This document shows positions 33,713 to 44,775 of a stretch of 47,024 nt of DNA, piece after piece. The notes under the pieces were generated by a model. It made no database searches. It saw only the letters and a list, made by a program, of their open reading frames with translations, and was not told where the DNA came from. Position 1 is the stretch's first letter. Each line of letters opens with the position of its first letter. The position numbers and the translations under genes are program-made. The DNA comes from Verrucomicrobiota bacterium. Its GTDB lineage: Bacteria > Verrucomicrobiota > Verrucomicrobiia > Opitutales > Opitutaceae. Where the stretch lies: assembly GCA_026398065.1 (NCBI GenBank), contig JAPLTR010000688.1, positions 1-47,024 of the forward strand, in the 5' to 3' direction.

Positions 33713-34522
33713 CTACCGCGGATTCGCCCGCTGCCGCACCGCTTCAAACAGCGTGATGATCGTCGCCATCGCGACATTCAGCGAGTCCGCCTGCCCCGCC
33801 ATCGGGATGCGCACCGGCACATCGCAGTTCTCCAGCCAGAACTGGCTCAGTCCGTACTGTTCGCTCCCCATCACCACCGCGAGCGATCCGCGCAGGCCGA
33901 CGTCCGAGTAAATCTTCTCCGCCGCCGGCGTCGTCGCCACCATGCGCACGCCTTTTTCCTTGAGCCACGCGTGCACCCGCGTGCTCTCCTCGACCACCAG
34001 CGGCACGGAAAACAGCACGCCCGTCGAGGCGCGCACGACGTTCGGGTTGAAAATATCCGTCACCGGGTCGCACACGATCACCGCGTCGCATCCCGCCGCG
34101 TCCGCGCTCCGCAGGATGGTCCCGAGATTCCCCGGCTTCTCGATCGCCTCCACCACGAGGTAAAACGGATGCTCCTTCGCCGGCAGGTCGGCCAGCGCCC
34201 GCCGCCACTGCGGCGCCACCGCCAGCAGCCCGTCCGGGCGCTCGCGATAGGCCACCTTGGCAAAGGCGTCCTTCGTCAGCTCAAACACCTGCGCCCCCGC
34301 CGTCCGGGCCTGCTCGATCAGCGCCGGCTCGTTCTCGCCCAGGAACCACTCCGGGGAAAAATAGATCTCCGCCAGCGCGACCTGCTTCTCCAGCGCCCGG
34401 CGGATCTCGCGGTAGCCCTCCACCAAAAACACCCCCGCCTCGTCGCGGGGACGTCGGTCGCGCAGCTTCACGAGCTGTTTCACGCGGGGATTCTGGAGAC
34501 TGGTGATTTTTTCGGCAAACAT
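33713..34522 (-). CDS. TrmH/SpoU-family RNA 2'-O-methyltransferase
   Basis: A 269-aa SPOUT enzyme from ATG 34522. The N-terminal substrate-binding domain (~1-105) has ITSLQNPRVKQLVKLRDRR and GVFLVEGYREIRRAL. The SPOUT core shows motif 1 VEAIEKPGNLGTILRSADA, motif 2 VMGSEQYGLS and motif 3 IPMAGQADSLNVAMA, the knotted SAM site. It 2'-O-methylates a ribose in rRNA or tRNA; the exact position cannot be stated. The frame stays open far upstream but that is antisense to the RlmD-like gene. The two RNA methyltransferase genes are divergent around the palindromic repeat at 34531-34610. Confidence 0.92.
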   Translation of the reverse strand: MFAEKITSLQNPRVKQLVKLRDRRPRDEAGVFLVEGYREIRRALEKQVALAEIYFSPEWFLGENEPALIEQARTAGAQVFELTKDAFAKVAYRERPDGLLAVAPQWRRALADLPAKEHPFYLVVEAIEKPGNLGTILRSADAAGCDAVIVCDPVTDIFNPNVVRASTGVLFSVPLVVEESTRVHAWLKEKGVRMVATTPAAEKIYSDVGLRGSLAVVMGSEQYGLSQFWLENCDVPVRIPMAGQADSLNVAMATIITLFEAVRQRANPR

Positions 34523-34530
34523 GGGTCGCG

Positions 34531-34610
34531 ACCACCCAACACATGAAACCGCCGAAAGAAAATCCTCTTCGTTTCGTCTGATTTCCCGTGTTTGGTGGGG
34601 TTTGTGGGCA
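34531..34610. repeat. imperfect inverted pair of the dispersed CACCAAA/CATGAAA repeat
   Basis: The left half (34531-34561) reads ACCACCCAACACATGAAACC and the right half (34569-34609) reads as its approximate reverse complement (CCCGTGTTTGGTGGGGTTTG). The halves flank a short centre. This lies between the divergent TrmH-like and RlmD-like genes and supplies the probable start codon of the latter. Confidence 0.5.
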
Positions 34611-35878
34611 AAAACAAAAAATTCCAGGACGTCCCGTTCGCCTATCACCAGGAGATCGAACTCGAGATCACGACCCTCACCAACCTCGGCTCCGGCCTCG
34701 GGCGCGTCGTGCTGCCGGGCGAAACCGAGGCGAAGTGGGTTGTCATGGTCCCGTTCACCCTGCCCGGCGAACGCGTGCGCGTGCGCGTCTTCCGCAACCA
34801 GAAGAATTTTTCCGAGGCCGACCTCGTCGAGGTGCTCACGCCCTCGCCCCACCGCATCCCCGCCACCTGCCCGCTCTTCGCCCGCTGCGGCGGCTGCCAG
34901 TACCAGCACCTTGCCTACGCCGAGCAGCTTCTCTGGAAACAGCGCCAGGTCGCCGAGCTCCTCCGGCACATGGCCGGCATCGACTTCCCCGTTTCCCCCG
35001 TCGTGCCGTCGCCCCGCGAATTCGGCTACCGCTCGAAGATCACGCCGCACTTCAATCCCCCGCGCGACCCCGCCACGCCGCCGCCCATCGGCTTTCTCCG
35101 CCAGGGCACCCGGTTCGACATCGTCGATGTCCCGCGCTGCCCGATCGCGACCGACGCGATCAACGCCAAGCTCCCCGAGGTCCGGGCCCGCGTCCACGCC
35201 CGCGCCGCCGCCGGCGAGTACGAGCGCTCCTCCACGCTCCTCCTCCGCGAGGCCAGCGGCCAGGTCACGACCGACTACGATGCGATCATCACCGAGACGG
35301 TCGGCGACCTGAAGCTTCGCTTCCTCGCCCGCGACTTCTTCCAGAACAACCCCTTCATCCTCCCCGCCTTCACCGGCTACGTCCGCGCCCAGGCCGCCGC
35401 CAGCGGCGCCCGCTACCTCGTCGACGCCTATTGCGGCAGCGGGCTCTTTGCCCTCACCGCCGCCCCGGCCTTCGAGCGCGTCGCCGGCATCGAACTCAGC
35501 GAATCCTCCATCCGCTTCGCCCGCGAAAACGCCGCCGCCAACGGCCTCGCCAACGCCACCTTCCAGGCCGGCGACGCCGCCCAGATCTTCGCCGGCCTGC
35601 CCGCCCTCGCCACGCCGGAGACCCCCGGGGCCTTCGCCGCCGCCGACACCGCCGTCATCATCGACCCGCCGCGCAAGGGCTGTGACGAAAATTTCCTCGC
35701 CCAGCTCTTCGCCTACGGCCCCCGCGCCGTCGTGTATGTTTCGTGCGACCCCGCGACCCAGATGCGCGACCTGAAGAGCTTCCTCGCCGCCGGCTACACC
35801 CTCACCGCCGCCCAGCCCTTCGACCTCTTCCCCCAGACCCGCCACCTCGAGTGCGTGCTCACACTGCGGCGTGGGTGA
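34604..35878 (+). CDS. RlmD/TrmA-family RNA (uracil-5-)-methyltransferase
   Basis: About 424 aa. GTG 34604 (GKNKKFQDVPFAYHQ) is the preferred start; TTG 34592 and GTG 34595 lie in the repeat. Order: TRAM domain (~14-75, EIELEITTLTNLGSGLGRVV), iron-sulfur Cys set ATCPLFARCGGCQYQHL with a fourth Cys in DVPRCPIAT, SAM-binding VDAYCGSGLFALTAA, DPPRKGCDE and the catalytic VSCDPATQMRDL Cys. These enzymes make m5U in 23S rRNA (RlmC/RlmD) or tRNA (TrmA); the 4Fe-4S cysteines favour the RlmD/RumA side. No damage seen. Confidence 0.9.
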   Translation: MGKNKKFQDVPFAYHQEIELEITTLTNLGSGLGRVVLPGETEAKWVVMVPFTLPGERVRVRVFRNQKNFSEADLVEVLTPSPHRIPATCPLFARCGGCQYQHLAYAEQLLWKQRQVAELLRHMAGIDFPVSPVVPSPREFGYRSKITPHFNPPRDPATPPPIGFLRQGTRFDIVDVPRCPIATDAINAKLPEVRARVHARAAAGEYERSSTLLLREASGQVTTDYDAIITETVGDLKLRFLARDFFQNNPFILPAFTGYVRAQAAASGARYLVDAYCGSGLFALTAAPAFERVAGIELSESSIRFARENAAANGLANATFQAGDAAQIFAGLPALATPETPGAFAAADTAVIIDPPRKGCDENFLAQLFAYGPRAVVYVSCDPATQMRDLKSFLAAGYTLTAAQPFDLFPQTRHLECVLTLRRG

Positions 35879-35980: not shown

Positions 35981-38900
35981 ATGTTTCACCGCTTGAGCCG
36001 ATTGGGTCTTGGGTTCCTATTCGTGGTGCTGTCGTGCGCCCTCCATGCCCAAACAGGCTCCGTCGACCCCGAGCGAGCCACACCGGTCAATGAAGGAGGT
36101 GGCTCAATGCCTCCGGTTATCTCTTCGTTTTCCCCATTCGACGTTTCGTCCATCCTAGGCGCATCGGCGACGTTTTCACCCAGTATCAACAGTGGCTCCC
36201 CCCCTTTTACCTTTCAGTGGGTGAAAAATGGCGTGGTGATTCCCGGGGCGACCGGCGGTCTGCTCCAATTGGTCAATCTCACGTCGGCCGACGCGGGCAA
36301 ATACTCCTGCATCGTGACCAATATTGCGGGAAGCGCCACCAGCCGCGAAGCCACCCTGACCGTAAGCCCGCCGACACCAATTGTCTTTATTTCACAGCCC
36401 CAAAGCCAGACCCTCTTTTCGGGCCAGACCCTCAGTCTATCGGTTTCGCCAACCGGCAGTCCGCCCATTGCCTTTCAATGGAGGAGAAATGGTACTGCCA
36501 TCGCGGGGGCAACGGACGGCTTTTTCTCGATCGGCTCCCTGGTGCCCGCCGACTCTGGCAGTTACTCTGTTGTTGCCACGAATCCTGCGGGCTCAGTCAT
36601 CAGCACTACGGCCGTCATCACGGTCAGCCCGCCCGTCGCGCCCACGATTGTTCGACAACCGGAAGATAGGAATGTCGACTACGGCAGTTCATTCTCAATC
36701 AGCGTTGCAGTCGGCGGCTCGCCACCCTTCGCCTTTGACTGGAAAAAAGACGGGATCGCGGTCAGTGGGGGCGACACCGCCGGTTCAACCCCCTCAAGCA
36801 ATTACGTATTCAATGCTGCGACACCGGCTCGGAATGGAGTCTACACCGTCACTGTGACCAACGCGGCCGGTTCGGTTACCAGTAGAGATGCGATCATCGT
36901 CGTCGCTGCGGCTACCCCACCCAAGATCACCTCGCAACCTTCCGCCCGTCAGGTCACGGTCGGCTTGGGCACCGCCTTCTATGTCGGATATTCCGGTACT
37001 AGCGATCGACCCTTCACCTTCCAATGGTCCAAGAATGGCGTGCCCATCGTCGGCGCCACCTCCGATGGCTACGTCATCGATGCCGTCCGCGACAACGATG
37101 CAGGCTCTTACTCTGTGGTCATCTCCGGCTCGGGCGGCAGCGTGACGAGCGCCTCCGCCAGACTTACCGTGGTTCCGGCGGTGCCGCCGAGCGTGAAATT
37201 TTGGCCTTTGGACACGGCCGCGACGCTCGGTCAGATGGTCAATTTTGGAGTTAACGATATCCGGGGCTCACCACCTCTTGCGATCCAGTGGTACAAGGAC
37301 GGGCTATTGATCGCCGAAGCGACCGGTGCCCACCTCAACTTTCAAAAGGTCGCCGAAACTGATTTGGGCATCTATACCTCTGTGATCTCGAACTCCGCCG
37401 GTGTCATCGCCTCGCCTCCGATTTCCCTGTCTGCACCACGTCCGTCGCCCTGGATCGCAGCCACCCAGTTCGACAACGCCGTCTACTTCCTCGCCGCCTC
37501 GCCGAGTCGCATCGAACGCTATGATCTCACCGCGGATCGTTGGCTTCCCACCGTGATCCTCGGCGGTACGCAGGCGCCCACAGCCTTCCTTCCCGTGGCC
37601 GAGGGGGTTTACGTCGCATATGGCCGGACCCTCGTACGTCGCAGCTCCGACCTCAGCAAGGAAACCTCCGTCGCCGATTCCGCTTCGGACATCACCGTCC
37701 TCTATGCCCTCGATGATTTTCTTTATTTCAACACCATCCTTCCCGCCGTAAACGGGACGGCCCCCGTCCTAAAATCGATTCGTCGAAGCAACCTCGCACC
37801 CGGGCCCGACAACGAACTCCTCTCCCGTCAACCAGCCCTCGCTCCCCGAACCCGTCGTGTATTCGGTTCTGAGGACAGATATAACGGCGTAAGCCCCCGT
37901 ATCGCCACGATCGGCCTCGACGGCCGCCATACCGCCGCCGACCTCACGAAAGTCGCTTACTCGAACTTTCCTTCCTCCAGTCGCCTCTATGTTTTTCCAT
38001 CCGAAGAGTATCTCGCAAACGGCGCCGGCAGCCTTTTCCACACTTCGGACTTTTCCTACGCGGGATCAATCGGTGTCGATCTGAACGATCTCACCTTCCT
38101 CGGCGACGGCACACCAGTGGTTTTGCGCGACCGCGTCCTCCGGCTCCTCGGGGCTCCCGGTTTCCTTGAATCGCGCCACGCCGACCTGCCCTTTGTCGGG
38201 GTACGCGCCTTCGCGACCGCTTCGGGGGTGGTTGTCTTCGGCTCCCAAGCGGCATCGGGCGATGCCTTCCGTGTGGCGAAGGTCCCCCTTGCGTCCTTCC
38301 TCCCCGCCTCCGGCGCGGCTTCTTCGGTGACGCCCACCGACCGCTTTTCGGTCGACGGAGTTTTCGAGGGTGCGGATGGCGTTGTAGGTATCTTTAGTCG
38401 TAGTCGGCAAGCGCTGCTGCGCTGGTCATCCGCTACGCAAGGCTATCTCCCGTCCATCCCGTTGCGCGGACAACCTACCTTCGTTACTCAAACCCCCTCC
38501 TCCACCCGTATCCTCCTTCTTTACGGCGATGGCACGTTGACCGAGGTTCCGTTGCGCACCGCCTTCACCCCGGAGCACATCATCGCCACTGTTGGCAGCC
38601 GACTTATCGCCGTCACCGATCTCAACGACATGGTTCTGCTCGACCTTCACAACTATGCCGACAGCGGTGTTTTTCGCTTCGTCATAGGGGCGCAAGTTCA
38701 GACCCTTCCGAATCCCAACTGGGGTGGCACCTTTAACGCCGGTGCGGCCTGGTTACCGGCGTCGCGACGGCTCTTCACCTACTCCGCCGGCGGCATTGGC
38801 TCCCTGAAGTTTGAGACTATCCCGGCCTCAGGGGAACTGCCCGGCCGGTATGACCCAACTGCGGGACCCACGGTGAACGCCCCCGCACCTTTGCGTTTCA

Positions 38901-40660
38901 ACTCCGAAGGCACGCTCTTCGCGGCCGGCAACGGTCGCGTGTTCACCACAAATCTCGCCCCGGCTGGTGTCCTGGGCTACGACTTCCTCGATGCCGCCTG
39001 GCTCGCCAATTGTCTTTTGACCCTCAGCGCCGCCACCGATGGTGGCATCGAAATTCAGCGCTGGGATCGCCTGAACTACCTCCGATCCGGCACTCTCACA
39101 CTGCCCGGCATTCCTCAAAGGATTCTGCGTGTTTCGGAGACTCAGGCGCTCGTGGTCTCACTGATCCAAGGCTTCCTTTCCTACACGTTGGTTAATTTCG
39201 ATCTCAGCCTCGCGACACCGCTCGGCGTCCCCAGCCGCGGCGGCGTATACTCCGGAGCATTCGGTCCCGCAGGTGCGGATGGCGTTTTCTCGCTCTACAT
39301 CCGGCCGGATCGCACCGGCGTTTTCCTGATCCAGTTCGCGCATTCCGCCGACGCGCTCCTTTCGACGGATGTTGTCCTCGGTACCGATGGTTTGTTCGTC
39401 ACCACGGCCCACGCCCTCGACGGCAGTACAAGCCGCGTCACTGCCGGAATAATTTCCTCCGCCGGCGGTTTTACGGGCACCATCCCCTCGCTCAACCTTT
39501 CCTTCAACGGCACCAAAGCCGCCGGCACTGCCGCATCCGCCGGTTTTTATTCAGCCTCCGCCCTCAATGGCAATACAGGTGAGGCCTATGTCATCGTAGG
39601 GGAGGATGGACGCGCCCTTTTCGTCGCCCGAGCCTCGTCCAAGAGCGATGGCGGAACGGCTTCGGTAGGCAACGATGGCAAATTCAACCTCATCACGCCG
39701 GCTGGCACAAAAATCAGTGGTATGCTCAACGTCGCCGCCGGCGATCTCGTCGCTACCACCGACTCCGGCGCCCTTTCCGGCTCAGCGTTTGCCGGCCTGC
39801 GCGACAATGTGATCCGCACCGACCGTCTCGCCAATATCTCCACCCGCGGCCGCGCCGGCCCGGGCGACGATGTCATGATCGCCGGCTTCGTCCTCACCGG
39901 CACCGCCCCCCGTCCCGTGCTGGTCCGGGCGATCGGACCCACCCTCGGTGGGTTCGGCGTCCCGGGCACGCTCGCCGACCCCCGCCTCGAACTTTACCGG
40001 GGCTCGACCAAACTTTCCGAAAACGACAACTGGTCCTCTGCCAACGATCTCGTCGCCACCACCGCCCGCCTCGGCGGCTTTGCCCTCGCCGCCGGCAGCG
40101 CCGATGCCGCCCTCCTTCTCACCCTCGACCCCGGCGCGTACTCCGCCCAGGTCAGCGGGCCCGGCGGCTCCGTCGGCAACGCCCTCGTCGAGGTCTACGA
40201 TGCCGGCACCACGCCTTCGCCGGGTACTGCCGCCCCACGGCTCGTCAATATCGCGACCCGCGGTCGTCTCGCCTCAGCCGACGACACCCTCATCGCCGGC
40301 ATTGTTATCACGGGCAATGCCCCCAAACGCCTCCTCGTCCGCGCCATCGGTCCCGGCCTCGCCGCCTTCGGGGTCACCGGCACCCTCGTCGACCCGGTGC
40401 TCACTCTCACCGGCCCCACGGCCTCGGGCCCCGGCACCCTAGCCGCCAACGACGACTGGGCCTCTCCTGCCACCGGCGGCCCCACCGCCGCCGAAATCGC
40501 CGCCGCCAGTGTCGCCACCGGCGCTTTCGCGCTGCCAAACGGCAGCAAGGACGCCTGCCTCCTCCTCACGCTCGCTCCCGGCAACTACACCGCCCAGGTC
40601 ACCGGCAAAAACAACGGCACCGGCGTCGCCCTCATCGAGGTTTACGAGGTCAACAACTAG
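35981..40660 (+). CDS. large secreted Ig-domain protein with two C-terminal Opitutaceae-type modules
   Basis: A 1559-aa exported protein; signal peptide ~1-24 (LGLGFLFVVLSCALHA). Five Ig-like domains (~45-490), each with PPxxFQWxKNGxxIxGAT, then L...DAGxYSxVxTNxAGS. Residues ~490-1080 are beta-rich without clear repeats (possible propeller), ~1085-1280 a region with GVYSGAFGPAGADGVFSLYI, then two copies of the ~125-residue module (~1283-1408, ~1420-1556) that also ends the NHL protein: RLVNIATRGR, LIAGxVxTGxAPKxLLVRAIGP, LxxNDxW, LLLTLxPGxYxAQV. Likely a cell-surface adhesin or glycan-binding protein; ligand unknown. Base composition of the first ~400 codons is lower in GC than neighbours. 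Confidence 0.85.
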   Translation: MFHRLSRLGLGFLFVVLSCALHAQTGSVDPERATPVNEGGGSMPPVISSFSPFDVSSILGASATFSPSINSGSPPFTFQWVKNGVVIPGATGGLLQLVNLTSADAGKYSCIVTNIAGSATSREATLTVSPPTPIVFISQPQSQTLFSGQTLSLSVSPTGSPPIAFQWRRNGTAIAGATDGFFSIGSLVPADSGSYSVVATNPAGSVISTTAVITVSPPVAPTIVRQPEDRNVDYGSSFSISVAVGGSPPFAFDWKKDGIAVSGGDTAGSTPSSNYVFNAATPARNGVYTVTVTNAAGSVTSRDAIIVVAAATPPKITSQPSARQVTVGLGTAFYVGYSGTSDRPFTFQWSKNGVPIVGATSDGYVIDAVRDNDAGSYSVVISGSGGSVTSASARLTVVPAVPPSVKFWPLDTAATLGQMVNFGVNDIRGSPPLAIQWYKDGLLIAEATGAHLNFQKVAETDLGIYTSVISNSAGVIASPPISLSAPRPSPWIAATQFDNAVYFLAASPSRIERYDLTADRWLPTVILGGTQAPTAFLPVAEGVYVAYGRTLVRRSSDLSKETSVADSASDITVLYALDDFLYFNTILPAVNGTAPVLKSIRRSNLAPGPDNELLSRQPALAPRTRRVFGSEDRYNGVSPRIATIGLDGRHTAADLTKVAYSNFPSSSRLYVFPSEEYLANGAGSLFHTSDFSYAGSIGVDLNDLTFLGDGTPVVLRDRVLRLLGAPGFLESRHADLPFVGVRAFATASGVVVFGSQAASGDAFRVAKVPLASFLPASGAASSVTPTDRFSVDGVFEGADGVVGIFSRSRQALLRWSSATQGYLPSIPLRGQPTFVTQTPSSTRILLLYGDGTLTEVPLRTAFTPEHIIATVGSRLIAVTDLNDMVLLDLHNYADSGVFRFVIGAQVQTLPNPNWGGTFNAGAAWLPASRRLFTYSAGGIGSLKFETIPASGELPGRYDPTAGPTVNAPAPLRFNSEGTLFAAGNGRVFTTNLAPAGVLGYDFLDAAWLANCLLTLSAATDGGIEIQRWDRLNYLRSGTLTLPGIPQRILRVSETQALVVSLIQGFLSYTLVNFDLSLATPLGVPSRGGVYSGAFGPAGADGVFSLYIRPDRTGVFLIQFAHSADALLSTDVVLGTDGLFVTTAHALDGSTSRVTAGIISSAGGFTGTIPSLNLSFNGTKAAGTAASAGFYSASALNGNTGEAYVIVGEDGRALFVARASSKSDGGTASVGNDGKFNLITPAGTKISGMLNVAAGDLVATTDSGALSGSAFAGLRDNVIRTDRLANISTRGRAGPGDDVMIAGFVLTGTAPRPVLVRAIGPTLGGFGVPGTLADPRLELYRGSTKLSENDNWSSANDLVATTARLGGFALAAGSADAALLLTLDPGAYSAQVSGPGGSVGNALVEVYDAGTTPSPGTAAPRLVNIATRGRLASADDTLIAGIVITGNAPKRLLVRAIGPGLAAFGVTGTLVDPVLTLTGPTASGPGTLAANDDWASPATGGPTAAEIAAASVATGAFALPNGSKDACLLLTLAPGNYTAQVTGKNNGTGVALIEVYEVNN

Positions 40661-40819
40661 CCGTCTGTTCAGCCAGGCCGACCGCGCCCTCTTGCGCTGT
40701 TGCCCGCGGGGGTGAGGGATTTTCCCTCCCGGCCCCGGCCCGGTGGCACCGGTGGTCGAAGCCAGGTCCGGGGCGAGGGGGCGCTTACGGCCACGTCGTC
40801 TCTCCGTGAGACTTCAGGC

Positions 40820-40847
40820 TTGATTTTGTATAAAAAAAGAATATGAT
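40820..40847 (+). promoter_or_regulatory. possible sigma70-type promoter in AT-rich island
   Basis: TTGATT (40820-40825), 16-bp spacer, TATGAT (40842-40847). It is the only AT-rich patch in the spacer and points to the propeller/phosphoesterase gene, though ~450 nt ahead of its start, which would leave a long leader containing the phased repeat. Confidence 0.35.
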
Positions 40848-40968
40848 TGTTTCTAAAATCAATCCCAACCTCCCTTGAACTCAGGTCGACCCATGGATCA
40901 AAACCGGGGCGCTCCAAGGCGGAGCATCGCCGCGTTTCACCCCCGCCCCGCCGCGCACCCCGCGCCGG

Positions 40969-41018
40969 ATCAAGGCTCATCAAGGGAAATCAAGGGATTT
41001 CAAGGCAAATCAAGGCAA
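40969..41018 (+). repeat. five 10-bp-phased ATCAAGG direct repeats
   Basis: Units start at 40969, 40979, 40989, 40999 and 41009; each is ATCAAGG (fourth unit TTCAAGG) plus three variable bases. The period is exactly 10 bp, close to one helical turn, so equivalent bases face the same side of the DNA. It lies in non-coding sequence upstream of the 41301 gene. Confidence 0.75.
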
Positions 41019-41300
41019 CGCCGGGCCGCTCGACGGCCACGAGGCCGTCCGCCGACCACTGGCAGCGGAACGACGAAAGGGCAGGGCGGGCTGCACTCGC
41101 GATAAATCCGACCCAATCCAACCCCCTCAAAGCCCACCCGCTCCTCGTCCCTCCACCGCAAAAAGGTACCTGCCGCTCGGCTGGGGGCTTTAACCCAGTT
41201 GATCGCCCGCGACGCGGCCGTCTTTCCTGGCCGACACCCGATCTTCACACCCTCCCCGAGAAACGCCTACCCGCCGCGAACGTCTTTTCCATTCCGCTCC

Positions 41301-43820
41301 ATGAAACCCTCGCGCCCGTCCTTTACCCTCCGGTTCACCGCCGCCCTCGCTTTCGCCTCCTTCGTTCCGTTCGCTCTCGCGGCGGCGACACCCACGACCC
41401 GTGGCCCCGAGGAGGATGTCAACAGCCCCGCGCTCCGCGAGCGCACCGGCCTCACTCCGGGCGCCAACCTCCTCTTCAACGGCTGGGGCGTCACCCCCGC
41501 CGGCCGGCCTGTCCCCATCAGCGACATGGCCCTCAAAATGATCGTGTCGCCCGACAAGAAGATGCTCGTCGCCGTCAGCGGCGGGTTTAGCGACACCGGG
41601 CTCACCCTCTTCGATCTCGCCACCCAGAAGGTGGCGCAGTTCCTCCCGCTGAAGGAATCCTGGAACGGCGTCGTCTTCACCCGTGACGGCGGGCGCATTT
41701 TGGTTTCCGGCGGCGACACCGGCCTCGTGCATGTCTTCACCTATGCCGACGGCAAGGCGACCCCGGCTCCCGCCGTGAAACCCGGCGGGCCGGACACCGA
41801 CCTCGTCTTTCTCGCTGGTCTCGCCGTTCACCCCTCGACGGGTAAAATCTATGTCTGCAACGAGGCCAACCACGAGGTCTGGGTCCTCAATCCCGACACC
41901 CTTGTGCGCGAAGCCACCATCCCGACCGGCCAGCATCCGCACTCCTGCCTCGTCGGCGCCGACCGGAAGCACCTCTACGTCACCAACTGGGGCAGCCGCG
42001 CGGTCACGGTGATCGACACCGCGACCAACCGCCGAGTCCGCGACATCACCGTGGGTATCCGCCCCAACGATCTGGCCCTCGCCCCCGACGGCCGCCTCTT
42101 CGTCGCCTGCTCCGGCGACAACACCGTGCACGTGATCAACACCGGCAAGCTCGAGGTCGCCGGTGAGCCCGCCAGCCCAGCCCGCCGCCTTTGGGAGGGC
42201 ACCCGCGAGATCATTTCCACCTCGCTTTATCCGCAGTCGCTCGAGGGCAGCACGCCCGACGGCCTCGCCGTGTCGCCCGATGGCCGCACCCTGTTCGTCG
42301 CCAACGCCGACAACAACAACGTGATGGTCGTCGATATCTCCAACCGCGTCACCGAGGAGGCGAAGGACCGCGGCGACACCATCTCGCTCGTCAACGGCTT
42401 CATCCCCGTCGGCTGGTATCCCACCGCCGTCGCCGTCAGCCCCGACAATCAGACGCTGTTCGTCGCCAACGGCAAAGGCCTCCAGTCGCGCGCCAATTTC
42501 CCCGCCAAGACCAGCGACCCTCGCACGCCCCACAAGTCGCCGCCCTTCGACTACATCGCCCGCACCTTCGAGGGCTCGATCTCGGCCATCGCTCGGCCGG
42601 ACACGAAACAGATGGTCGCCTACACGGAGCAGGTCCGGAAAAACTCCCCCTACACGCCCGCCTGGCTCACCCGCGCCCCGATCGCCAGCCAGAGCGTCAT
42701 CCCCGCCAAGGTTGGCGACCCGTGCCCGATCAAGTACGTCCTCTACATCATCAAGGAAAACCGCACCTACGACCAGGTGTTTGGCGACATGAAGGACGCG
42801 AAGGGCGCCCCGCTCGGCAATGGCGACCCGCACCTCGCCATCTTCGGCGAAAAAATCACGCCCAACCAGCACCAACTCGCCCGCGACTACGTGCTCTTCG
42901 ATAACCTCTATTCCAACAGCGAGGTCAGCGTCGACGGCCACAGTTGGTGCGACGCAGCGATCGCGACCGACTTCAACCAGCGCTCCTGGATCATCAGCTA
43001 TTCGAAGCACGGGAAACTCGCCGGCAACGAGGAGATGGAAACCCCCGCCAACGGCTACCTCTGGGACCTCTGCCGCCGCCATGGCGTCACCTACAAGAAC
43101 TACGGCGAGGGCGCCCAGCGCGTCCCCTCCGCCAACCGCGGCCAGTGGGGCAACCGCCGCCAGATGCGCGACATGGACAAGGTCGATTTCTGGATCAAGG
43201 ACCTGCAGGACGCCGAGCGGACCGGCGTCCTCCCACGCTTCACGATCATGTCGCTCGGCGAAAACCACACCAGCGGCACCGCCCCCGGCGCCTTCACGCC
43301 CAACGCCGCCGTCGCCAGCAACGACCTCGGCCTCGCGAAGATCGTCGCCGCCGCCAGCCGGAGCAAATTCTGGCCCGAGATGGCGATCTTCGTCATCGAG
43401 GACGACACCCAGAACGGCCCCGACCACGTGGACGCCCACCGCACCGCCGGCCTCGTGCTGAGTCCGTATGTGAAGCGCGGATACGTGGACTCCACCCTCT
43501 ATACCACGGCGAGCATGATCCGCACGATGGAGCTGATCCTCGGGCTGCCCCCGCTCACCCAGTACGACGCCGCGGCCACCCCCATGTTCAACGCCTTCCA
43601 GCGCGAGCCCGTCCTCACACCCTACGCCGTGATCCAGCCGGACGTGGACCTGCAGGCCAAGAACACCCGCCGATCCGTCTTCTGGCAGGAGTCCTCCCGG
43701 ATGAACTTCACGGAATACGACCGCGCCCCCGAGGACGAATTGAACCGCATCCTCTGGGTCGTCGCAAAGGGAGACGAACCGTACCCGACCCCGATCCACC
43801 GCGCACTTTTCACCAAGTGA
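41301..43820 (+). CDS. secreted propeller-phosphoesterase fusion protein
   Basis: An 839-aa protein from ATG 41301 with signal peptide ~1-28 (TAALAFASFVPFALAAA). Residues ~45-420 form a YVTN/YncE-type propeller: DLATQKVAQFLPL, IYVCNEANHEVWVLNPD, LYVTNWGSRAVTVIDTATN, LFVANADNNNVMVVDIS. Residues ~475-835 are a phosphoesterase of the alkaline-phosphatase/phospholipase C type: YIIKENRTYDQVFGDM with the nucleophile-region Thr, VSVDGHSW, MSLGENHTSG, FVIEDDTQNGPDHVDAHRT and the metal-binding His/Asp. Such fusions are widespread in Verrucomicrobiota and Acidobacteriota (recalled). It would hydrolyse phosphoesters outside the cytoplasm; substrate unknown. Long leader with the phased repeat. Confidence 0.88.
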   Translation: MKPSRPSFTLRFTAALAFASFVPFALAAATPTTRGPEEDVNSPALRERTGLTPGANLLFNGWGVTPAGRPVPISDMALKMIVSPDKKMLVAVSGGFSDTGLTLFDLATQKVAQFLPLKESWNGVVFTRDGGRILVSGGDTGLVHVFTYADGKATPAPAVKPGGPDTDLVFLAGLAVHPSTGKIYVCNEANHEVWVLNPDTLVREATIPTGQHPHSCLVGADRKHLYVTNWGSRAVTVIDTATNRRVRDITVGIRPNDLALAPDGRLFVACSGDNTVHVINTGKLEVAGEPASPARRLWEGTREIISTSLYPQSLEGSTPDGLAVSPDGRTLFVANADNNNVMVVDISNRVTEEAKDRGDTISLVNGFIPVGWYPTAVAVSPDNQTLFVANGKGLQSRANFPAKTSDPRTPHKSPPFDYIARTFEGSISAIARPDTKQMVAYTEQVRKNSPYTPAWLTRAPIASQSVIPAKVGDPCPIKYVLYIIKENRTYDQVFGDMKDAKGAPLGNGDPHLAIFGEKITPNQHQLARDYVLFDNLYSNSEVSVDGHSWCDAAIATDFNQRSWIISYSKHGKLAGNEEMETPANGYLWDLCRRHGVTYKNYGEGAQRVPSANRGQWGNRRQMRDMDKVDFWIKDLQDAERTGVLPRFTIMSLGENHTSGTAPGAFTPNAAVASNDLGLAKIVAAASRSKFWPEMAIFVIEDDTQNGPDHVDAHRTAGLVLSPYVKRGYVDSTLYTTASMIRTMELILGLPPLTQYDAAATPMFNAFQREPVLTPYAVIQPDVDLQAKNTRRSVFWQESSRMNFTEYDRAPEDELNRILWVVAKGDEPYPTPIHRALFTK

Positions 43821-44130: not shown

Positions 44131-44775
44131 ATGAAACTAACCGGCTCAGCTCTCCTCACCCGCGCCTTGGCGCTCGCATCGCTCTTCGCGATCGTCTCGG
44201 CCGCGCAAGCGGCTATCATCGACTTCACCGGCGGCTCCGTTAGCGGCGCCTACGCCAATCACTACGAAGAAAACGGATTTCAGGTCGACGTGACCGGCGC
44301 CTCCGGCGCGTTCTTCGGCGACTACTATGGCGTTGGCAACAACGTCATCCACGCGCACTGGGCCACGGGCCCCTACGGGAATGTCACCGAGATCAAGATC
44401 TCCAAGATCGGTGGCGGCACGTTCGATCTCAACTATTTCATCCTCACCTCCAACACCGACACCGGTGGCGGTCCGGCCTCCGGCAACGAACGGGCTTGGA
44501 TCAAGAACAACAACGGCAACGACCAACTCTTGCCCGTCGAAAACTGGGGCTTTCCGGCCACGCAGATCTTCCTGGGCTCGAACTACGACGGCATCACCTC
44601 GTTCTCCTTCTACGTCACCAATATGGTGGATTGCTTCGGCATGGACGAATTCTACATCGACCAGGCCGCGCCTCCCGGAGGCCCCTCCGTCCCCGACTCG
44701 GCCACGACCGCCGGTCTCCTTGGTTTCGCCATGGTCGGTATGGTTGCGGCCCGTCGCAAGCTGAGCCGCCGTTAA
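44131..44775 (+). CDS. VPDSG-CTERM-type exported protein (exosortase substrate)
   Basis: A 214-aa protein: signal peptide 1-27 (ALALASLFAIVSAAQA), an unrecognised ~155-residue beta-rich domain with many aromatic/Gly residues (FFGDYYGVGNNVIHAHWATG), then at ~187-214 the sorting tail: VPDSATTAGLLG, a hydrophobic helix (FAMVGMVAA) and a basic end (RRKLSRR). This is the verrucomicrobial variant (VPDSG-CTERM) of PEP-CTERM, processed by exosortase. No exosortase lies in the window. The gene is monocistronic: long control region before it and strong terminator after it. Confidence 0.88.
   Translation: MKLTGSALLTRALALASLFAIVSAAQAAIIDFTGGSVSGAYANHYEENGFQVDVTGASGAFFGDYYGVGNNVIHAHWATGPYGNVTEIKISKIGGGTFDLNYFILTSNTDTGGGPASGNERAWIKNNNGNDQLLPVENWGFPATQIFLGSNYDGITSFSFYVTNMVDCFGMDEFYIDQAAPPGGPSVPDSATTAGLLGFAMVGMVAARRKLSRR

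Follow-up and report, generated by a model that had tools for sequence, protein, structure and literature searches.

Why a 640-bp spacer between two called genes (40661-41300) should carry five copies of one short motif, each exactly 10 bp from the next, is the question raised by a 47,024-nucleotide contig of a Verrucomicrobiota bacterium (Opitutaceae), the whole of which we call the window. A preliminary description had taken the exact phasing for the pattern of a cooperative binding site or of curved-DNA-like phasing, placed between a low-GC promoter-like island and a propeller/phosphoesterase gene and not explained by coding. We lean somewhat towards a different answer: the array would be one copy of a dispersed decamer module that lies mostly inside an amplified, lineage-specific, promoter-headed and probably translated orphan element.

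The array in its spacer

The spacer and the promoter-like island upstream of the array (about 40819-40864) are both present as first described. The units needed a small correction. TCAAGG starts at 40970, 40980, 40990, 41000 and 41010, so the exact 10-bp phasing stands, but the fourth unit reads TTCAAGG and only four are exact ATCAAGG; the array is therefore five TCAAGG rather than five ATCAAGG (40969-41018: ATCAAGGCTC ATCAAGGGAA ATCAAGGGAT TTCAAGGCAA ATCAAGGCAA). Tandem Repeats Finder reported the same interval independently, with period 10 and 5.0 copies. On the + strand of the whole window, this is the sole hexamer with at least four copies at a fixed step of 7-30 bp, and the expectation for five in register from base composition is about 4e-15 per strand. 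Further downstream, a second trio (TCCGAC at 41107, TCCAAC at 41117 and TCAAAG at 41127) runs in the same orientation. The features of the spacer are collected in Table 1.

Table 1. Features of the array spacer, in window coordinates
Feature	Positions	Strand	Basis
Promoter-like head: TTGATT 40820-40825, 16 bp, TATGAT 40842-40847	40820..40850	+	head model R1
ATG frame, 70 codons through the array, beginning MDQNRGAPRRSIAAFHPRP; candidate short member of the orphan family	40893..41105	+	sequence
Type B array, five decamers with TCAAGG core	40969..41018	+	sequence, Tandem Repeats Finder
Type A array, three related units AATCCGACCC, AATCCAACCC, CCTCAAAGCC	41105..41134	+	sequence

Dispersal, structure and setting of the decamer arrays

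The array is dispersed through its own genome, not local to the window. The preliminary description had suggested that other phased arrays be sought there, and TCAAGG-N4-TCAAGG-N4-TCAAGG gave 52 exact matches, forming 26 arrays on 21 contigs of a draft assembly (1004 contigs, 89.5% complete, 5% contamination); the reversed control pattern gave none in this genome. When both gaps were left free between 0 and 14, 60 TCAAGG triplets were found in the same genome and 55 of them kept the 10-bp register: 52 with gaps 4/4 and three with one unit skipped, the other five being out of register. The exact pattern is rare elsewhere. It occurs in just two other genomes among the 57 searched (own included), in none of the eight congeners, and in one other genome of a phylum sample of 387, again counting its own. 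A sister unit, ATCCGA at 10 bp, had 154 matches in the same genome and two in one relative, with at most one mismatch. The wider decamer family of the window unit includes AATCCGACCA and GATCAAGGTG. Scanning named species genomes returned at least 109 stretches with 10-bp arrays; among the matches listed, several Verrucomicrobia MAGs hold several arrays each, with different spacers, and many others are single runs whose spacers are identical or nearly so.

Other short-period repeats were met along the way. In a Verrucomicrobia subdivision 3 MAG (CAITTG), most TTCAAGGTGA arrays lead directly into an A/T-rich tract, which is a layout of its own (L112, L129, L130, L143, L149, L150, L180). Viral contigs L218, L225, L226 and L231 hold TCAAGGTGAA arrays at 10 bp in repeated blocks. 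A weaker second period, of 9 bp, is present in the intergenic DNA of the loci fetched from the own genome; 25 of its 27 matches are without decamer cores and possibly reflect CACGGAACA-type runs.

Two types of array make up the family in its own genome. Type A reads AAATCCGACC-AAATCCGAGT-AAATCCGACC-AGATCAAGGT-GGATCAAGGT-AGATCAAGC, and type B, to which the five-unit window array belongs, is built of TCAAGG units separated by spacers like CAAA or CATT. In both, conservation starts and stops at the array edges, with no conserved ends outside the array among 39 non-redundant type A and 14 type B copies. Between TCAAGG cores 20 bp apart (56 cases, at loci partly picked by the pattern itself), a single base accounts for 93-100% at each of the six core columns in the middle unit, and for 36-79% at the spacer columns. 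Arrays recur about every 150-350 bp within a region, and in some cases they are tandem copies with a spacing of 171, 186 or 312 bp.

The 10-bp phasing, together with AAAT or ATTT in many spacers, might suggest phased tracts of intrinsically curved DNA. In a single wedge model the window array is instead predicted to curve by 0.15 deg/bp. When the unit columns are permuted the mean is 0.84, and 97% of such versions curve at least as much as the array itself; the corresponding figures are 0.47 against 0.68 for type B and 0.67 against 0.70 for type A. As the predicted curvature is below the permuted null, the earlier suggestion of curved-DNA-like phasing is not supported, and we regard curvature as hardly credible here.

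Conventional genes offer little guidance to where arrays fall. All 145 arrays in 51 loci lie outside called genes (codon model trained on the own genome), a share that is valid for array-selected loci only, since nearly all of these were chosen for their arrays. Where both neighbours are known (101 arrays), their strands relative to the array are same/same in 27, opposite/opposite in 38 and mixed in 18 and 18, and we saw no relation of strand or position to the flanking conventional genes. An operator array for a local regulator is not supported by these counts: there is no consistent place or strand relative to genes. The arrays themselves have a single polarity, none of the 50 array-bearing loci having arrays on both strands. 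Two paralogues of the window propeller/phosphoesterase gene do lie near array clusters in the same genome (G000:C965, loci L056 and L257; G000:C863, locus L256), which may be coincidence.

The congeners were compared at the window locus. Blocks 33728-35866 and 41426-43818 are 5.56 kb apart in the window and 228 bp apart in G002, so the window has about 5.3 kb extra, which includes an Ig-domain gene and the array spacer. G008 and G004 have the junction of G002, and all three are without the array spacer and also without the upstream Ig-domain gene; G006 matches the downstream side only. The idea of a site private to the propeller/phosphoesterase gene is thus not sustained: the unit recurs in many regions without a strand relation to flanking genes, and the spacer is absent from three congeners. 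Against a 0.8-Mb sample of G002, the neighbours were adjacent at none of six array gaps and at 11 of 30 other gaps, numbers too small to be read further. As a separate observation, the genes flanking the Ig-domain giant gene (35981-40660) and those flanking a VPDSG-CTERM gene (44131-44775) are adjacent in G002, so these two genes look like lineage-specific insertions.

How much remains of a protein-binding site? The better conservation of core than of spacer fits what recognition by a protein would require, and one may imagine a putative multimeric DNA-binding protein, a nucleoid-associated or global regulator, contacting one helical face per decamer while any reading frames are incidental. 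The strict register (55/60 triplets), the conserved core with variable spacers and the end of conservation at the array edges would all suit such a protein; the lack of relation to conventional genes in strand or position and a depletion of stops in the ATG frame described below, which extends outside the arrays, would not be expected of it. We consider this unlikely. From the cooperative-binding pattern first proposed, the exact phasing and the 6-bp core better conserved than the 4-bp spacer survive, and privacy to the neighbouring gene does not.

A promoter-like head and the frame behind it

The regions around the arrays share a feature on their upstream side. Of the 29 regions whose two flanking genes are known, 27, the window being one of them, have their GC minimum on the upstream side of the arrays; one of these 27 minima (L035) is a run of N, with a head still visible nearer the array. 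A GC filter for the upstream island was passed by 36 of 50 array clusters, and the other 14 failed partly because a contig end cuts the region. Aligning 28 of the islands gave a common head with consensus TGTTCTTTTAATCAACTTTATnGTTGATTTATAnTnnAAAAAnGnGCAT and a dyad, ATCAAC-N6-GTTGAT. It was on finding this head that our initial non-coding reading of the regions changed.

The head model found 79 matches in its own genome, made up of 68 distinct heads and 11 antisense dyad matches; 40 of the 68 are outside the 28 copies used to build it, and at least 68 heads exist because 138 of the 231 candidates were scored. It had no match in eight congeners, and among 29 other genomes it had weak matches in eight (best E 0.0034). 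Heads and arrays are linked. Among 20 held-out heads, all from contigs previously unfetched, 15 are followed on the same strand, within 1.5 kb, by an array of at least three units, and three of the remaining five have just 67, 130 and 290 bp to the contig end. Run on 244 kb of strand from own contigs that had not been selected, and on 1.6 Mb of strand of G002, the same array detector found nothing.

Downstream of the head an ATG could be matched in 45 of 55 copies (window copy excluded), often opening a frame with MNTDR or MNPDR. Over codons 10-160 of these 45 copies, stops number 30 in the ATG frame and 97 and 84 in the other two. The ATG frame is stop-free in 33 copies, against 9 and 10, and none of 20,000 frame-randomised sets had as few stops. 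Outside the arrays the counts are 23 against 47 and 56 (P 0.003); since the copies are related and the events not independent, such P values are rough. The depletion is gone over codons 160-300 (70, 93 and 55). The common (G/A)AGTAAATCC contains a TAA, which is in frame at one of 31 first occurrences and at three of 56 overall. Two open array phases are both in use (17 and 13), so the encoded peptide is not fixed; the frame is therefore being held open by something even as the array phase, and hence the peptide, varies.

What such frames would encode has little of an ordinary gene product. The N-terminal stretches (up to 150 residues) are strongly basic, with a median pI of 11.8 over 39 ORFs, and a protein profile detects N-terminal resemblance among the family ORFs, yet with two array phases in use. 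Host-like codon usage is absent from the family frames. Differences at codon positions 1, 2 and 3 number 225, 223 and 273 in five copies, without a clear third-position excess. The frames of several copies extend into the neighbouring gene, and those of type B copies L029 and L036 are short (46 and 13 codons). Searches of Pfam and NCBIfam with 10 ORFs gave nothing above the curated cut-off; the best scores, both for L100, were far below it (E 0.074 and 0.0054, respectively), and the L100 ORF had no match in plasmids and phages. When the protein profile was run on 120 genomes of the bacterial family, its own included, with up to 25 candidates scored per genome, strong matches were confined to the own genome, and weak, stop-bearing ones came from three genomes of one other genus.

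These features bear on whether the element is translated at all. Head and arrays could be transcribed or transposed without a protein product, as a non-coding RNA or a non-coding mobile repeat. DNA-level conservation in two frames, the foreign codon usage and the lack of a clear third-position excess agree with that, as does the lack of an orthologous protein in the 119 other family genomes, apart from the stop-bearing matches in three. The scarcity of stops in the ATG frame and the avoidance of in-frame TAA run counter to it, and no Rfam family (nor any tRNA) was matched in the window; we judge it rather improbable. The earlier statement that the array is not explained by coding needs dividing accordingly: the 10-bp period is indeed not a codon period, but in most start-bearing family copies the array lies in a stop-depleted ATG frame.

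The position of the arrays, often 90-240 bp past the ATG, also brings to mind a contingency locus, in which a non-triplet tandem unit of 10 bp near the frame start would switch a gene on and off by slippage. Mean identity of the 4-bp spacers is 1.87 of 4 for adjacent ones, 2.0 within the same array and 2.06 between arrays. Recent slippage is not visible, because adjacent spacers are no more alike than those of different arrays, and we deem such switching very unlikely.

The head and frame of the window copy are recognisable only faintly. Its head corresponds to the right half of the family head, within the AT-rich island, and lacks the left half of the dyad. Head model R1 matches nowhere better in the whole window, although this match is weak (6.2 bits, E 0.54); it lies on the correct strand and upstream of the array. 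The ATG frame ends with a stop codon at 41103-41105, and another frame (40847-41590) likewise runs open across the array; 70 open codons are unremarkable in GC-rich DNA. An N-terminal profile puts the window ORF 12th among 825 ranked stretches and is too weak to place it. Taking array, island, polarity and frame together, we infer that the window copy is a short, divergent member of the element family and a candidate for coding.

We hypothesize the following for the headed, probably translated element. A typical copy would run from an AT-rich promoter-like head with its dyad, through an ATG, into a basic, low-complexity frame, very roughly 130-250 codons long, in which decamer arrays come up every 150-350 bp or so. 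The head would drive transcription and the frame downstream of it would be translated; the arrays would be DNA-level repeat modules retained where the frame stays open, and the 10-bp spacing would be a mere repeat unit length. On this reading the array would not bend the DNA, and present evidence does not make it an operator for the gene that follows. A fuller version can be put forward tentatively, as possible: an amplified gene element, with some 70 or more copies in one genome that have a dyad-bearing promoter in common and each encode a basic orphan protein that changes fast. The 10-bp unit would be conserved as DNA while selection would only keep the used frame free of stops. The repeat would then be DNA signal and coding module at once, and the copies may form a regulon under one regulator.

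Comparison with known repeat systems and implications

We recognised no description of these elements among open-licence papers, but several systems resemble them in part. According to PMC4679880, marine Beggiatoaceae have 169 sets of two to six copies of a TAACTGA heptamer as direct repeats, many of them immediately ahead of a start codon, which led to the proposal of a link to translation. The likeness is in the very many short, intergenic direct-repeat sets of one lineage. However, the TAACTGA unit is 7 bp long and ours 10 bp with a variable 4-bp spacer, and our arrays lie past a conserved head, mostly after the ATG, and irrespective of the strand of conventional genes.

Rickettsia palindromic elements (PMC10969869) and enterobacterial RU elements (PMC2759123) are, in the accounts available from those sources, dispersed sequences of about 100-170 bp that carry or keep an open frame, many of them inside host genes. 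Many dispersed copies (68 heads) with an open frame (45 copies) are common ground. Unlike them, the present elements have their own promoter-like head and sit between conventional genes (145/145 arrays at the array-selected loci outside called genes), and their only dyad is the short one in the head, without palindromic or inverted-repeat ends. Bacterial satellites and minisatellites, as far as PMC6749651 was consulted, are likewise tandem repeats scattered through a genome; here the spacers vary from unit to unit and the copies stand in a polarised composite element.

Closer to home, CACGGA-type arrays occur in 24 of 56 relatives, including all eight congeners (G000-G011, G021, G030, G036 and others; loci fetched L338-L357). 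They share the 10-bp period, 4-bp spacers ending in A and a location mostly outside called genes. At 20 fetched loci they often have an inverted copy or follow TTTAAC, without a head, and the head model found nothing in the eight congeners that bear them. In G030 and at some G004 loci the inverted pairs are tens of bp apart, often 3' of TTTAAC, and resemble hairpin elements near gene ends. We considered the CACGGAT arrays of relatives as possible starts of the element and set this aside, as they look like a separate class. None of the systems compared, as far as the material seen from them goes, joins a 10-bp unit, such a head and an open orphan frame.

Ordinary gene calling would class the regions of these elements as long spacers. 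If they are untranslated, the polarised layout of head plus array still defines a repeat family well enough for its spread to be traced. If they are expressed, one uncultured bacterium has a family of co-regulated orphans that is missing from its congeners and is built of repeats whose 10-bp period clashes with the codon period, and the birth of genes from repeats, under a double constraint of DNA and frame, would become testable within one genome.
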